A DNA stretch of 64,000 nt from Psychromonas ossibalaenae ATCC BAA-1528 (lineage in GTDB: Bacteria; Pseudomonadota; Gammaproteobacteria; Enterobacterales; Psychromonadaceae), in contig NZ_KB906980.1 of assembly GCF_000381745.1 (NCBI RefSeq), positions 1 to 64,000 of the forward strand, written 5' to 3'. The first letter of the stretch is position 1. Every line of letters begins with the position of its first letter. This document shows positions 4,410 through 53,105 of the stretch, piece after piece. The notes under the pieces were generated by a model that ran no database searches, had not been told where the DNA came from, and worked only from the letters and a program-made list of their open reading frames with translations. Position numbers and translations under genes: made by a program.

Positions 4410-5189
4410 TTATGTGCCGAACATAAATACAGTTAAAATAAAATCCATTGCTAATACTAGTAATGAAGAGACAACAACGGTCTGCGTCGTTGCTTTGCTG
4501 ATCCCCTGCGCGGTGGGAACAACGTGATAACCGTTATAAAGTGCAACCCAGGTGATCATAACAGCAAAAATGACACTTTTAATAATGCCGTTACCGACAT
4601 CAGGCAGGTATTCGACACTGCCCTGCATAACTGACCAGTATGCGCCGCCGTCAATGCTCATCCAGCTCACGCCGATTAAGTATCCCCCCCAGATAGCGAT
4701 AACATTAAACAACAGCGTCAGCATAGGCAGGGTTACAATACCGGCATAAAAACGCGGCGCAATCACCCGCTTCAAAGGGGAAACAGCCATCATCTCCATA
4801 CTGGCAATCTGCTCTGTACTCTGCATTAAACCAATTTCGGCCGTTAAAGCGGAACCTGCTCGACCAGCAAAAAGCAGGGCGGCAACAACCGGGCCTAATT
4901 CACGTAACAGCGACAAAGCCACCATGCTGCCTAAACTCTGTTCAGCGGCATAATCAACTAAAACATAATATCCCTGCAGACCTAAAACCATGCCGATAAA
5001 CAGACCGGCAGTTAAAATAATCGGCAAAGATAAAATACCGAGCTGAAATACCTGCGCAATGAACAGCGAAAATAGTTTCGGGTGAGGTGCTCCCCAGACA
5101 GTACGCAGCAGCAGCAGAGCAGACTTTCCAGCCGTGCGCGTTAACGCTAAACTAAAACGTCCAACGGACCTTACATAAATGCCTATCAT
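4410..5189 (-). CDS. mlaE: MlaE, lipid ABC transporter permease
   Basis: A 259-residue integral membrane protein of the MlaE/YrbE family, the permease of the Mla system that acts in retrograde phospholipid transport. The diagnostic ELGPVVAALLFAGRAGSALTAEI core is at about residues 96-118; several hydrophobic spans follow. It overlaps mlaF by four bases (ATGA), so ATPase and permease are coupled. Confidence 0.96.
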   Translation of the reverse strand: MIGIYVRSVGRFSLALTRTAGKSALLLLRTVWGAPHPKLFSLFIAQVFQLGILSLPIILTAGLFIGMVLGLQGYYVLVDYAAEQSLGSMVALSLLRELGPVVAALLFAGRAGSALTAEIGLMQSTEQIASMEMMAVSPLKRVIAPRFYAGIVTLPMLTLLFNVIAIWGGYLIGVSWMSIDGGAYWSVMQGSVEYLPDVGNGIIKSVIFAVMITWVALYNGYHVVPTAQGISKATTQTVVVSSLLVLAMDFILTVFMFGT

Positions 5190-11011: not shown

Positions 11012-11857
11012 ATGAAATTAATAATCATTAGCGGACGCTCCGGCTCAGGAAAAACCATCGCACTACATGTGCTTGAAGATTTAGGTTATAACTGTATCGA
11101 CGGTGTCCCGTTCCAACTGCTTGAACAACTGATCGATACCATTGATGCAGAAAATAATAAAGTGGCGATTAGCCTGGATGTTCGCAATTTACCTACCGAA
11201 ACATCTGCAATAGAGCAGCTGCTTGCTTCATTGAAAAATAAAATTGCTATCGAAATAATTTATATTGATGCAATAACAACTGAATTAATCCGCCGTTACA
11301 GTGAAACGAGACGGCTTCACCCGCTGTCTAAACAAAAATTATCCCTGTCTCAAGCGCTTGAGCTTGAAAATGAACTGCTCCAGCCAATTCGTTCCTGTGC
11401 AGCCTTATCAGTCGATACAACAACACTGTCTATCCATAATTTAAGTGAGCGTATTAAGATTCATCTACAGGGGTCATCCAAAAGCAAGCTGCTGATTATA
11501 TTTCAGTCTTTCGGCTTTAAATATATGCACCCGGAAGATGCTGATTATATTTTTGATGTACGGTTTCTACCAAACCCGCACTGGGAACCAGAATTACAAA
11601 AATTCAGCGGTTTAGATCAGCCGATTAAAGATTATCTTGATTCTTTCAGTCTGGTAAAACAGACCGCTAACCAGATTGAAAACCTTTTTCATTCCTGGCT
11701 GCCTCACCTTGAAACCAATAACCGTAACTACGTGACAATTGCAATCGGCTGTACAGGCGGAAAACACCGTTCCGTTTACCTGACGGAGCAAATTGCGGCG
11801 CGTTTCAAACAAAAATACCAGGTACAAATTGAGCATAAGTGCTTAAAGGAGCAATAA
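11012..11857 (+). CDS. rapZ: RNase adapter protein RapZ
   Basis: A 281-residue P-loop protein. In enterobacteria RapZ binds the sRNA GlmZ and delivers it to RNase E, controlling glucosamine-6-phosphate synthase. Walker A GRSGSGKT occupies residues 8-15; the conserved C-terminal motif GCTGGKHRSVYLTE is present. Clustered with ptsN and npr as usual. Confidence 0.97.
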   Translation: MKLIIISGRSGSGKTIALHVLEDLGYNCIDGVPFQLLEQLIDTIDAENNKVAISLDVRNLPTETSAIEQLLASLKNKIAIEIIYIDAITTELIRRYSETRRLHPLSKQKLSLSQALELENELLQPIRSCAALSVDTTTLSIHNLSERIKIHLQGSSKSKLLIIFQSFGFKYMHPEDADYIFDVRFLPNPHWEPELQKFSGLDQPIKDYLDSFSLVKQTANQIENLFHSWLPHLETNNRNYVTIAIGCTGGKHRSVYLTEQIAARFKQKYQVQIEHKCLKEQ

Positions 11858-11862
11858 AATAA

Positions 11863-12138
11863 GTGGATATCATCAAACAAACTATTACAATACAAAACAA
11901 ATTAGGTCTACACACTCGTGCAACCATTAAACTTGTTGAATTAGTTAATTCTTTTGATGCAACCATTATAATCAAGCATCAAGGTAAACAGGCAGATGCC
12001 GACAGTGTACTTGGTTTACTGGTTTTAGAAACATGTTACGGCCAGGAAATTGAAATATTAGCAAAAGGAACAGAGGCGAAGCAGGCAATGCTTGCGGTCA
12101 CTAAGCTGATAGAAGATAAGTTTTTAGAAGAAGAATAA
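11863..12138 (+). CDS. npr: Nitrogen-PTS phosphocarrier NPr
   Basis: A 91-residue HPr-like protein starting at GTG 11863. The phospho-acceptor is His17 in LGLHTRAT, and the segment around DADSVLGLLVLE aligns with the NPr/HPr serine region. It relays phosphate from EI-Ntr to PtsN. It lies 5 bp after rapZ, with mgtE 19 bp downstream. Confidence 0.95.
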   Translation: MDIIKQTITIQNKLGLHTRATIKLVELVNSFDATIIIKHQGKQADADSVLGLLVLETCYGQEIEILAKGTEAKQAMLAVTKLIEDKFLEEE

Positions 12139-12157
12139 TAATACAGGAGCTTACGTA

Positions 12158-13516
12158 ATGCTGGAAAATACCGACACACAAAATGCCCAGCAACGCCTCC
12201 AAGAAGTGAATAAAGCCCTCGAAAGCGGCATGTTTGTACTCGCGCGCAGCATTCTTGAAAAAATGCCGGCTTGTGATGTTGCTCTGCTGCTCGAATCCTC
12301 CCCCCCTGCCAATCGTAAAGTTTTATGGAATTTAACCGATCACGACCAGCAGGGTGAAATACTGGAAGAATTAAACGAAGATGCTAAAGACGGCATTATC
12401 AGTTTAATGGGTGCTGCTAACTTGGTCGCGGCAACAGAGGGTATGGATACAGATGACCTTGCTTATATCCTGCGAGGCATCCCGGACAGTCTTTATCAAG
12501 CAGTACTGCAGCAGATGGATGCTCAGGACAGGCACCGTGTAGAGCAGGCACTTGCCTACCCGGAAGATACTGCCGGCTCAATAATGAATACCGATACTAT
12601 CACCCTGCGCCCGGATGTTTCCATTGATGTTGTATTACGTTATCTGCGCTTAAAAGGTGAACTGCCGGAAGCAACCGATACTCTTTATGTGGTTGATGAA
12701 GATGATCAGTTAATCGGTGACGTCCCTCTTTCTACTTTGCTGACCGTCGACCCCTCTCTTTCTGTTGCCCAGGTGATGGATAATAAAACCGAAACGTTAC
12801 TCGCTGAGATGGATGAAACTGAAATAGCCAAACTGTTCGAACGTCATGACTGGATTTCAGCCCCCGTTGTTGACGCCCAAAACCACCTTCTTGGCCGTAT
12901 TACCATCGATGATGTTGTTGACATCATCCGTGAGAATGCTGAGCATTCTATGATGGGTATGGCGGGCATGGATGATGACGAAGATACTTTTGCTCCTATT
13001 CTGCCAAGTACAAAACGCCGCACCGTTTGGCTTTCGATTAATTTAATTGCGGCATTTATCGCGGCCTCTGTCACGAATATGTTTGAAGCAACATTAGAGC
13101 AGATGGCAACACTTGCAATATTAATGACCATAGTGCCAAGCATGGGCGGTATTGCCGGTAATCAGACTCTTGCTTTAGTTATCCGCGGGATTGCTGTCGG
13201 CCATATAGGCAGTGGCAATACTAAATGGTTAATCGGCAAAGAAGCTGCTGTCGGCATTCTTAATGGCTTGATCTGGGCATTTTTAGTAGCGACTGCTGTT
13301 ACCCTGTGGAAAGGCGATATTTCCGTTGGTTTAATCATTGGCGGCGCTATGTTTATCAATCTATCAGCGGCCGGAATAGCAGGGGTCACCATCCCGCTGA
13401 TTATGCATAAATATAAAATAGATCCCGCACTTGCCGGCGGTATGGCTTTAACAACGGTAACCGATGTTATCGGCCTGTTTTCTTTCTTAGGTATGGCGAC
13501 ATTAGTATTAAGTTAG
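12158..13516 (+). CDS. mgtE: MgtE-family magnesium transporter
   Basis: A 452-residue Mg2+ channel: N-terminal MgtE superhelical domain (about 30-130), tandem CBS domains (about 135-255, with AGSIMNTD at the start), and five C-terminal membrane helices (about 285-450) with the pore segment GGIAGNQTLALVIRG. The cytosolic acidic domains act as the magnesium sensor that closes the channel. It ends the plus-strand run and converges with yacL. Confidence 0.96.
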   Translation: MLENTDTQNAQQRLQEVNKALESGMFVLARSILEKMPACDVALLLESSPPANRKVLWNLTDHDQQGEILEELNEDAKDGIISLMGAANLVAATEGMDTDDLAYILRGIPDSLYQAVLQQMDAQDRHRVEQALAYPEDTAGSIMNTDTITLRPDVSIDVVLRYLRLKGELPEATDTLYVVDEDDQLIGDVPLSTLLTVDPSLSVAQVMDNKTETLLAEMDETEIAKLFERHDWISAPVVDAQNHLLGRITIDDVVDIIRENAEHSMMGMAGMDDDEDTFAPILPSTKRRTVWLSINLIAAFIAASVTNMFEATLEQMATLAILMTIVPSMGGIAGNQTLALVIRGIAVGHIGSGNTKWLIGKEAAVGILNGLIWAFLVATAVTLWKGDISVGLIIGGAMFINLSAAGIAGVTIPLIMHKYKIDPALAGGMALTTVTDVIGLFSFLGMATLVLS

Positions 13517-50200: not shown

Positions 50201-50580
50201 AGTCATTAAAAGAGTTAGGCGGCGAATTCACCCGCCTGGTGGATAAAGTTGAAGGCAAAGGAGCAGATAAAAACCAGCTTAAACGCGAGGTACTAGTAGA
50301 TGTCATGAACCGAACACTGGAATACTGGGAATTAGAAAGTAATCAAACTAAATTTGAACTAGCCGAACAAAGCCGCTTATGGCGAGTTTATTTAGACCGC
50401 AGCACACTGCAGACCCGTACTCTTGATAAATACCTGCATTTAGAAACCTTACCTAAAGCACCGCGCTGGCGGACGGTACTAAGCACTATCGAGTATGTAC
50501 TTAGTAATTGTGATGTACACAATCAGCAGCGTTTGAAAATTGAGCAGCTGCGCTCACAGCTGCAGAAGTTAATCAGCTAA
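47215..50580 (+). CDS. chiS: ChiS-type hybrid sensor kinase, chitin-utilisation regulator
   Basis: 1121 residues. Membrane helices at about 15-35 and 345-365 flank a ~310-residue periplasmic sensor. HAMP, a Gln-rich coiled coil, HisKA (His463 in TSHELRTP), HATPase (NLIGNAIKYT, DTGSGI, GAGLGLS), a receiver (Asp767 in LLDVMMPGMSG), a PAS-like region (about 865-950) and a helical C-terminus follow. V. cholerae ChiS, of nearly the same length, is held inactive by unliganded binding protein and directly binds the chitobiose promoter through its C-terminal domain; the same is inferred here. It is divergent to the operon and overlaps the ampD 3' end by 12 bp. Confidence 0.93.
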   Translation: MIKINYFKKLKNTLMVAFLVLSITPLTLSSLFYLYTQSQDLSEQIKTHLTTQRDNQQQQVESYFKAQESEVRSFARSELGISSGGRFYGLVKAFQHLGNTTQEAQIHAQRRYETGSGDVINSKIKRDSPEYLGSERYRLIHKRYHHLYSDLLARSDFSDILLVNLKGTIVYSTRKFDYYGTNLLNGKYQNSPLAETFKTVAQHVKINPDEKITPVIFSDFKKQGTEEPAWFAAPIKEQGYLHSFVIFKLDNTHLSTLLAKSSGHQQRTLLTDGNSRSRIKTAQEQNSESQTDSILQAINGFTSVDSFSNTQGDQVLAAFTPISVLGKSWALAVELPEKLAYARIKQLEQVFIITLLLAIALVVIASHYLSNSITAPILNLAWIAERLAAGDLEQEMTGTERQDEIGRLAVSFARMKHSVSEKLQLINKQNKELETNLTLIQQQNNELQLSDKLKDEFLATTSHELRTPLHGMLGITEMLSSGAYGPLNKDQLYQLDIINNSGMRLSNLVDDLLDYHKMRYGNLYINKHAVDLSSAVHLVLELSSHLLNNKPLRIINQVPEQLPLVTADEQRLEQVLYNLIGNAIKYTSEGKIIICASIMETNLQVQVIDTGSGIEAGQLEHIFEPLIQANVDSPYYRQGAGLGLSISRRLIELMGGSLYVSSQPQIGTTFSFTLPLASAVAVSETNLPNAVKHFDIPAPYEQISVTTDSLPDNPDAPLLIVADDEAVNLQVLTSFLRLEGYRVKTAPNGVETLDLIEQEIPALLLLDVMMPGMSGYEVCQAVRKEFDAGSLPIIMLTALSQSKDRIRGFEAGANDYVSKPFNQKELAARINAHLQASQTQRLNNSNIQLRQTLKNQEQIEADLLETQGNLLTLLEHSPDAVLCIRNDERIHFANRNAGKLFKRSLQQLQHYQLDDLVVKRSLENKNKHNHEIDIYIEGKIQRLTASVIPLPEQSGLHSLIIFCIDDNYDAQRVTNLENAVDALSSYAFDGDSRQLQSLKELGGEFTRLVDKVEGKGADKNQLKREVLVDVMNRTLEYWELESNQTKFELAEQSRLWRVYLDRSTLQTRTLDKYLHLETLPKAPRWRTVLSTIEYVLSNCDVHNQQRLKIEQLRSQLQKLIS

Positions 50581-51114
50581 CAAACGGAAATAATAATTCC
50601 AGTCAAATAAAGCACCGGGATCCGTTTTTCGCCCCGGTGCAATATCACTGTGTCCCGTTATCCGCGACCTTGTGATTGCCGGATAACACTGCTGAATCTG
50701 CACCGTTAATGCAGCAAGCGCCCGATACTGATCTTCTGTATAAGCACTCTTATCTGTCCCCTCCAGCTCGATACCGATAGAATAATCATTGCACCCTTCA
50801 ATACCTGCAAAACAAGAAAAACCTGCATGCCAGGCACGTTTTGCAAAAGGAACATACTGCTCCACTTGACCATCACGGCGGATCACACAATGCGCCGATA
50901 CTTCTAAGCCCTGCAGGTCTGCAAAGCCGGGATCTTCACTGCAGTCTAAACAGCCGGTAAACAGCTGCTCAACGGCTTTCCCGCCATATATACCTTCGGG
51001 AAGGCTGATACAGTGGATCACTAATAAGCTAATCTGAACATCAGCGGGACGCTCATTATAAAAGGGACTGCGGATCTGTTTTGCTGCCGGGTAAATGCCG
51101 AGTTTGTCGATCAT
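50569..51114 (-). CDS. ampD: 1,6-anhydro-N-acetylmuramyl-L-alanine amidase AmpD
   Basis: A 181-residue cytoplasmic zinc amidase of peptidoglycan recycling. Zinc ligands are expected in VIHCISLP (His near residue 34) and in GHSDIAPGRKTDPG (His and Asp near the C-terminus). There is no signal peptide, which separates it from periplasmic AmiD. Its 3' end overlaps that of chiS tail to tail. It lies downstream of eno beyond the terminator array, an unusual place: ampD more often adjoins pdhR or nadC. Confidence 0.94.
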   Translation of the reverse strand: MIDKLGIYPAAKQIRSPFYNERPADVQISLLVIHCISLPEGIYGGKAVEQLFTGCLDCSEDPGFADLQGLEVSAHCVIRRDGQVEQYVPFAKRAWHAGFSCFAGIEGCNDYSIGIELEGTDKSAYTEDQYRALAALTVQIQQCYPAITRSRITGHSDIAPGRKTDPGALFDWNYYFRLLAD

Positions 51115-51170
51115 AATAATTTTCCAGTATCTGTATTTTCGCTAAGCCATCATAGTCTTTCCTACACATA

Positions 51171-51317
51171 AAAAAAATCCCCACCGAAGTGAGGATTTAA
51201 AATCTTTAAAATTTAAAAATCAGAATTACTGAGCTTCTCTTTAAGGTTGAGGTGTTTCAGCGCCTAGAGCAACACGGTCAGAACGGCTTAAAGCTCTTCA
51301 TCCGCTAAACCGCAGGC
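51171..51317 (-). pseudogene. Decayed copy of the eno 3' end, unit 4
   Basis: Read on the minus strand it contains an exact 22-bp enolase segment (51269-51290, coding SRSDRV in eno), then LG and a degraded tail. The 33 bp for [11 protein letters not shown] are cleanly missing between two GCT codons. The enolase-like stop region and a terminator identical in stem and loop to that of eno (51175-51198) follow. Confidence 0.85.
51175..51198 (-). terminator. Terminator, eno array unit 4
   Basis: Ten-bp stem with TTCG loop, same sequence as the eno terminator, followed on the minus strand by a T-run. Confidence 0.85.
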
Positions 51318-51440
51318 AAAAAAAATCCCCACCGAAGTGAGGATTCTAAATCTTAAAATTTAAAAATCAGAATTACTGACCTTCTCTTTAAGACTGAAGT
51401 GAATGATGGTGCTTTGCACCTATATTTATAAACCGCAGAC
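51318..51440 (-). pseudogene. Decayed copy of the eno 3' end, unit 3
   Basis: It retains the region corresponding to the last ~15 codons of eno (GTCTTAAAGAGAAGGTCAGTAA on the minus strand), the 3' untranslated stretch and the terminator at 51323-51345. It lacks the 22-bp SRSDRV block present in units 2 and 4. Confidence 0.8.
51323..51345 (-). terminator. Terminator, eno array unit 3
   Basis: Same TTCG-loop hairpin as the eno terminator with one base changed at the 5' base of the stem, followed by a T-run on the minus strand. Confidence 0.85.
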
Positions 51441-51446
51441 ATAAAA

Positions 51447-51468
51447 AAACGCTTCCGAAGAAGCGTTT
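51447..51468 (-). terminator. Terminator, eno array unit 2 (different stem)
   Basis: AAACGCTTC/GAAGCGTTT stem with a TTCG loop on the minus strand and seven T. The stem sequence differs from the other three, but loop and position are kept. Confidence 0.85.
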
Positions 51469-51567
51469 CAAATCTTATCGTTTAAAACTCAGTAAATATT
51501 ACTGACCTTTTCTTTAAGACTGAAGTAAATGCAGGTGCTTTTGAGCCTAGATCAACTTAGCTACGTT

Positions 51568-51610
51568 AAATATTGATTCAATTTATAAGTTATAAATTGA
51601 ATCAATATTT
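51568..51610. repeat. Perfect 43-bp palindrome
   Basis: Two 21-bp arms (51568-51588 and 51590-51610) are perfect inverted copies around a single base. The sequence is AT-rich and lies inside eno array unit 2, splitting the 22-bp block from the tail. It is too tight a loop for a standard terminator. Confidence 0.85.
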
Positions 51611-51683
51611 GTTGCTTGCCCGTAGTTAACAAAGAGTTGCAACACGGTCAGAACGGCTTAATGTTCTTTGTTTACTAAATAGC

Positions 51684-51717
51684 GGGCAAAAAAAATCCCC
51701 ACCGAAGTGAGGATTTA
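51684..51717 (-). terminator. Terminator of eno
   Basis: AAATCCTCAC/GTGGGGATTT stem (one T-G wobble on the minus strand) with a TTCG loop, followed by eight T and GCCCGC. Confidence 0.92.
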
Positions 51718-51743
51718 AAATCTTAATATTTAAAAATCAGTGA

Positions 51744-53105
<1,362 letters not shown>

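Follow-up and report, generated by a model that had tools for sequence, protein, structure and literature searches.

Tandem repeats are known to evolve in concert through unequal crossing-over and gene conversion, site-specific integration into the 3' ends of genes leaves duplications of the attachment site behind, and double intrinsic terminators follow strongly transcribed operons such as rrn. The array described here, a series of three partial copies of the enolase gene (eno) in Psychromonas ossibalaenae ATCC BAA-1528, can be compared with each of these systems. It lies between eno and ampD in a stretch of 64,000 nucleotides (contig NZ_KB906980.1, positions 1 to 64,000 of the forward strand; hereafter the window). 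As in concertedly evolving repeats, many copies are nearer to the other copies of their own genome and to the parent gene than to orthologues, and the number of units changes fast; unlike in such repeats, the repeated segment comprises just a terminator and the final ~110 bases of a housekeeping gene, and the working gene itself appears to participate. The likeness to attachment-site duplications lies in the partial copy of a gene 3' end downstream of the gene, whereas here no element or nearby integrase is found, the units are spaced about 125-250 bp apart and the distal copies are not working ends. With the double terminators of rrn-type operons the array shares several strong terminators in series, but each of them is paired with a copy of a coding 3' end.

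Salmonella enterica subsp. houtenae likewise has a second, broken 3' part of eno behind the gene, together with its terminator and downstream sequence (AGRM01000002.1, around 11700-12450); it differs in lying ~2 kb from eno, with other annotated open reading frames (ORFs), small hypothetical genes, between, in matching over 401 bases at 95%, and in lacking the insert A described below. No report of an eno-tail array was found among open-licence PubMed Central papers, some of the queries being narrow; plasmid-borne eno has been described, with no array in the passages on it (PMC5971314). As far as can be told, four aspects are apparently new: the unit composed of a coding tail and a terminator, its specificity for one gene, its occurrence in three families with inserts that resemble one another, and the swapping of 3' ends between the array and the working gene. 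Partial tandem copies of gene ends are usually taken as isolated scars; those described here recur behind one gene and behind none of the others tested and seem to trade sequence with the functional gene, so that the array offers a testable case of recombination-driven turnover of bacterial terminators and 3' untranslated regions (UTRs).

The array between eno and ampD is confirmed to consist of three degraded eno-tail units, as an initial annotation made from the letters alone had proposed. The intact parent gene (51744..53042, minus strand) is a 432-residue ORF identified by TIGR01060 at 672 bits, and the next gene in the same direction, outside the array, is ampD (50569..51114, minus strand; NF008758 AmpD, 263 bits). 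Reading in the direction of eno, the gene is followed by its own intrinsic terminator with a TTCG loop (T1, 51693..51716), then by unit 2 (51443..51687), unit 3 (51318..51442) and unit 4 (51170..51317), and finally by ampD, all on the minus strand. The source of the units is the last ~110 bases of eno. A 22-bp core, TAAGCCGTTCTGACCGTGTTGC, has three exact occurrences in the window, all on the minus strand, namely in eno (51829-51850), in unit 2 (51639..51660) and in unit 4 (51269..51290), against 0 expected from 100 shuffles in which up to three mismatches were allowed. The units are collinear with eno, in that the core is followed by '..CTAGGCTCAAAAGCACC..CTTAAAGA..GGTCAGTAA', the UTR and the terminator, and unit 2 still reads LGSKAP. 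The terminator scan finds a TTCG-loop terminator on every unit, as had also been claimed: T2 in unit 2 (51446..51469, GAAACGCTTC-TTCG-GAAGCGTTTT), T3 in unit 3 (51322..51347) and T4 at the end of unit 4 (51175..51198), the last one before ampD. With T1 this makes four minus-strand terminators within 542 bases, while the scan of both strands returns 5 terminator-like sites versus 0.6 +/- 0.7 in shuffles.

The array is probably best explained by an old tandem duplication of the eno tail that is still recombining with eno. The duplicated segment would have comprised the last ~110 bases of the gene, the UTR and the intrinsic terminator, and units would later have been gained, lost and reshuffled by unequal homologous recombination and gene conversion, among themselves and with eno, homologous recombination being the presumed agent. 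Their retention may be due in part to the fail-safe terminator that each unit would add behind a presumably very highly transcribed gene. Comparison of the sequences shows that the units are derived from eno, that no other tested gene end is copied, that unit number varies between apparently close species, that many units are similar to the own-genome eno, and that, for two close species, the 3' UTR and terminator following eno in one are those of a unit in the array of the other. Repeated tandem duplication and collapse, one of the origins first suggested for the array, is well supported, with the addition that copies do not only decay, many of them being similar to their own eno.

The strongest sign of exchange appears to be a reciprocal pattern of UTRs between the window and Psychromonas aquimarina (G002; genomes are referred to by G numbers). 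In the window, the segment that reaches from the UTR of unit 2 into unit 3 agrees at 114 of 117 aligned bases with the eno UTR of P. aquimarina and the unit behind it. The UTR of the window eno, in turn, agrees with that of the first P. aquimarina unit at 56 of 58, whereas a comparison of the two eno UTRs gives only 42 of 56. Each ortholog therefore bears a 3' end that is found in the array of the other. The P. aquimarina array (loci L080 and L081, contigs C29 and C43) is itself divided between two contig ends, apparently by an insertion sequence.

Exchange is also suggested by the copies as a population. Among 47 eno tails the own-genome eno is the best or tied-best match (9 ties) for 34 of 56 copies of at least 40 nt, while a random genome of the same clade, the own genome being excluded, is best for 2-8 of the 56 in ten trials (G019, with odd contigs, G020, which is 51% complete and gave no eno match, and G005, without an anchor word, were left out). 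Identity between long units and their own eno tail amounts to 98.7-100% over 79-82 bases in G260, G254, G236 and G013, and in G013 the near-identity extends over 199 bases including the UTR. The Vibrio genome G260 carries five tandem long units with a 210-bp period. Unit number also differs between G336, with a single unit, and the apparently close G297, whose array comprises three; a transposase gene (named from sequence) splits one of these three. The first of the two units in G245 has no insert and continues as eno, as expected of a recombinant.

Copying is eno-specific as far as tested. When the last 120 bases of ORFs of at least 120 residues (called mechanically, not curated genes) were sought within 700 bases downstream in the window and 65 further loci, 316 ORF ends could be tested, and a downstream copy was found for eno in 29 of 38 cases and for other ORFs in 0 of 278; because the loci were chosen for eno, the former is not a frequency and the latter serves as the control. 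The 36-residue tail of fba, another glycolytic gene, was matched exactly once per genome in a set of 46, of which 39 carry an array; this was a protein search, a mode with lower sensitivity than the DNA searches (with the eno tail it finds additional copies in 4 of 18 Psychromonas and in 5 of 16 Vibrio genomes drawn).

Relatives hold two kinds of unit, long and short. The long unit consists, in order, of a linker after the preceding T run, the eno core (eno codons around LSRSDRVA or MSRSDRVA), an insert of 19-20 nt that is not derived from eno and replaces 6 eno bases, the remaining eno sequence to the stop codon, the UTR and the terminator. The short unit lacks the 22-bp core and in Psychromonas retains about the last 25-45 eno bases only. 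In the window unit 2 is long and matches this architecture, with linker, core, 20-nt insert, a palindrome, eno tail, UTR and T2. Unit 3 (a linker with GGTGCAAAGCACC, the last ~45 eno bases, the UTR and T3) had been read as a degraded copy of the eno end, and it does keep those bases, but as a member of the separate short type. Unit 4 is of the long type with a deletion directly after the core. The reported 33-bp in-frame deletion in this unit holds by comparison with eno, but versus a long unit the deletion would be longer and not in frame. Because in the long units of relatives ~20 bases foreign to eno replace 6 eno bases at this position, unit 4 was probably already out of frame, and the in-frame status of the deletion is therefore without weight.

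The copies are non-coding, since their bias towards the third codon position is reduced and many of their indels shift the frame: in 48 copies the substitutions relative to the own eno number 49, 57 and 89 at codon positions 1, 2 and 3, a weaker bias than between one eno and another (61-70% at position 3), and 20 of 32 indels are frameshifting. A peptide reading of the Vibrio units (ATG AGC CGT ...) was considered and rejected, as, judged by eye, the frame varies with insert length between units and the ATG is absent from Psychromonas units.

Related genomes do contain eno-like segments in this region, so that the refuting outcome named with the initial annotation, their absence from relatives, did not occur. 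Of 24 Psychromonas genomes 23 contain eno, and in 14 of the 23, the window's included, eno-coding sequence recurs within ~1 kb behind the gene with E down to 1e-108 (G000, G001, G002, G004, G006, G008, G011, G013, G015, G016, G017, G018, G021 and G023). By this ~1-kb test no copy is seen in the other nine (G003, G005, G007, G009, G010, G012, G014, G019 and G022); in G003 a decayed unit stands at the start of another contig. In an order-wide draw of 247 genomes the 36-residue eno tail recurred immediately after eno in 4 of 18 Psychromonas, 2 of 3 Neiella and 5 of 16 Vibrio drawn, the two Neiella genomes having long units; the remaining second matches are distant from eno and lie in mostly long open frames, resembling further enolase-like genes, or at contig ends.

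In Vibrio at least 47 of 196 genomes carry eno-tail copies directly behind eno, a lower bound given that at most 4 candidate places were scored per genome. A long-unit query gives at least 2 matches in 52 of the 196, with long units beside eno, among the matches listed, in 24. When the other 28 were searched again, 23 had shorter eno-tail pieces within ~650 bases behind eno (66-73 bases in 12 genomes, 24-28 bases only in 11); in the last five the copies lie on another contig (G263) or the second matches lie elsewhere (G275, G293, G382 and G417). No copies were detected in 149 of the 196 Vibrio genomes at the sensitivity used. The end of eno matches in 5373 of 5426 Escherichia coli genomes, each time at exactly one place, by a search that needed an exact 28-base word and that short decayed pieces would escape.

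A search of named genomes with a pattern that fixed the flanks and length range of the insert returned 23 loci, 14 from Vibrio or Vibrionaceae/Vibrionales, 2 from Neiella, 2 from Psychromonas and 5 unrelated chance matches. A 20-nt insert pattern with at most 2 mismatches, which does not fit the commoner 19-nt Vibrio form, occurs in 12 of 394 genomes, exclusively Psychromonas, Neiella and Vibrio and always in eno arrays. At 3 mismatches it yields 15 matches elsewhere, which look like chance because the reversed pattern yields 13. In the genome of the window, units were found only at the eno locus, and a DNA query against all 24 Psychromonas genomes found them only in eno arrays. A dispersed palindromic repeat or miniature inverted-repeat transposable element was rejected as a candidate, as the own genome, the 24 Psychromonas genomes and the 394-genome insert search all point to eno arrays only.

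The terminators are largely kept in relatives: of 63 units, present in 38 of 49 sequences, 49 have a terminator-like hairpin behind them. Here units were recognized by a fuzzy eno-tail pattern and the hairpin had to lie before the next unit or within 170 nt; G019 and G020 were left out, and the tail pattern missed the units of G000 and of contig C29 of G002. Thirteen of the hairpins are letter-identical to the stem-loop of eno itself and 36 are not, differing by single changes, shortened stems or wholly different stems. The keeping of terminators while their letters change suits fail-safe termination. That the array exists mainly to stop transcription repeatedly, as a fail-safe, after a presumably very highly transcribed gene is nonetheless rather unlikely: the four terminators in 542 bases and the kept but altered hairpins speak for it, but many relatives show a single terminator, fba has its one match per genome in the less sensitive protein search, and a bare second terminator would suffice with no need of an eno tail. 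Selection for repeated termination, also raised in the initial annotation, may have acted on the terminators, but the nine congeners and 149 Vibrio genomes mentioned above show no copies at the sensitivity used.

Several observations weigh against the explanation by duplication and continuing recombination. The duplication event itself is not observed, and 22 of the 56 copies (13 from long units, 9 from short) are closer to the eno of another genome, which makes homogenisation incomplete. The insert is not explicable by exchange with eno, a deletion in one lineage could also yield part of the UTR pattern, and 11 of the 23 Vibrio genomes with shorter pieces rely on pieces of 24-28 bases. The suggested role in termination in particular is weakened by the 14 of 63 units that lack a terminator by the criteria used, and by the lack of detected copies in 9 of the 23 Psychromonas genomes and in 149 of the 196 from Vibrio. 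Among the units without terminator are the last ones in G011, G015, G021 and G431, as decay would give.

The array could also be a neutral residue, a chance duplication that decays slowly and has no function. The distal units are often broken (G003, G017, G018 and G021) and copies go undetected in many relatives, as this would predict, but the breakpoint and similar inserts are shared across three families, the insert evolves slowly, terminators are kept and re-amplification has been recent, and we regard a purely neutral array as rather unlikely.

Duplicated gene 3' ends are the usual mark of integrative elements, and the array could accordingly be the scars of elements attaching at the eno 3' end, each of which brought a replacement end and left the old one. 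In favor of this, the 22-bp core is the best-preserved part of the units in the window and, by eye, the genes beyond the array vary between species. However, the genome has 12 phage-integrase matches and none of them on the 98.5-kb contig of the window, and in 10 array-bearing genomes (9 Vibrio and 1 Psychromonas) the nearest integrase match is ~148 kb from eno (G117), the others being at least 190 kb away. In the arrays read, insertion sequences are the sole interruption of units, and the short units lack the core. The long distal copies are hardly former working ends because they carry the out-of-frame insert, and at the sensitivity used units are found only in the eno array.

Searches of phage and plasmid collections brought up records that bear enolase and one Serratia plasmid. 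With the eno-tail peptide 28 phage records matched, and among the 20 listed most are unannotated and some annotated as enolase. With the Vibrio long-unit query 2 records of the phage collection and 10 of the plasmid collection matched; 11 of these 12 matches are about the length of plain eno, which leaves no space for the insert, and the remaining one is an eno end of 79 bases on a plasmid from Serratia. Taken together with the distance of integrase matches from eno in the genomes checked, this makes an origin in integration scars, the further possibility offered by the initial annotation, very improbable. The Serratia match is an observation in its own right: the conjugative S. proteamaculans plasmid NZ_MT039179.1 carries at 5001-5079 the last 79 eno bases with a terminator-like hairpin, and the eno codon at which the match starts is nearly that at which the tail begins in the long units.

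The non-eno bases of the long units deserve separate treatment. In unit 2 of the window insert A occupies 51619..51638 (minus strand), 20 nt replacing 6 eno bases, and similar inserts of 19-20 nt are found at the same position in long units of Psychromonas, Neiella and Vibrio. Among 9 Vibrio genomes (those of 13 with complete pyrG and eno) the mean distance in the insert is 0.053 per site, versus four-fold-site values of 0.386 for pyrG and 0.182 for eno, and 0.377 for the 16 linker bases upstream of the core; the Vibrio sample was drawn by a search pattern that fixed the flanks, the length range and two purines near the end and left the remaining insert letters free. Among 8 Psychromonas genomes, each represented by one hand-chosen insert (G011, with a shorter form, and G016, with other lengths, were left out), the mean distance is 0.115 versus 0.468 at pyrG and 0.188 at eno four-fold sites. 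Variable columns number 3 of 19 in the Vibrio insert versus 188 of 245 for pyrG (P 3e-8) and 97 of 208 for eno (P 0.005), and 6 of 19 in the Psychromonas insert versus 133 of 154 (P 7e-8) and 93 of 196 (P 0.12), these P values being optimistic given shared ancestry and the non-independence of columns and genomes.

Constraint on insert A is moderately supported by these comparisons, in which the silent sites of eno are nearly as slow as the insert. Conversion from eno cannot maintain the insert because eno lacks such bases. From its distribution the insert looks older than the split of the three genera, or else passed between them. In this respect the array may represent a constrained noncoding motif beside a core glycolytic gene. 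We also consider, speculatively, that the long unit is an 'enolase-tail cassette' of ~200 bp (core, constrained 19-20 nt insert, tail and terminator) that Psychromonas, Neiella and Vibrio share by inheritance and that stores alternative 3' ends for the gene; recombination would keep the cassettes eno-like and swap the UTR and terminator of eno, and the insert would act as a selected DNA or RNA signal. If this were true, the 3' end of one housekeeping gene would evolve by cassette exchange.

A related proposal is that the units serve in regulation and are under selection for it, as a small RNA or 3' trailer derived from eno, in which insert A would be a binding or processing signal and the likeness to eno would let the unit mimic eno mRNA as a decoy. 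The slowness of insert A relative to the four-fold sites of pyrG and eno in both Vibrio and Psychromonas, and to the adjacent linker in Vibrio, is consistent with such an element, as is the terminator at the end of 49 of 63 units. However, no Rfam family reaches its gathering score in 14 loci (the window region gives only sub-gathering matches), no promoter-like site was found in the array, and the consensus fold of 17 units contains three pairs with no double change and hence no covariation. Nor do 38 long units stripped of the terminator fold better than native eno ends (median z -0.74 versus -0.98, p 0.40). With the non-independence of columns and genomes and the slow silent sites of eno also counting against it, we consider a regulatory element unlikely. 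The whole array folds far better than its shuffles (z -11.4), and that stretch holds four terminators and a 43-bp palindrome. A structured RNA was likewise considered and rejected: many linkers look, by eye, like inverted repeats of the copy, but no shared covarying fold was found in the 17 units.

The 43-bp palindrome, matching at 42 of its 43 positions, lies inside unit 2 (51568..51610, minus strand), where it takes the place of eno codons; G018 has what appears by eye to be an imperfect palindrome there. In Psychromonas sp. SP041 (G008) a different, perfect palindrome of 40 bp stands at the same position, its inner letters differing on both arms. Finally, seven Vibrio loci (L116, L129, L131, L183, L184, L187 and L188) contain a second insert, T-rich and followed by ACAA..AAAGC or similar, before CGGTCTTAAA. 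It lies near the position of CATTAACTTCA in Psychromonas and, judged by eye, its ending resembles that of the first insert.
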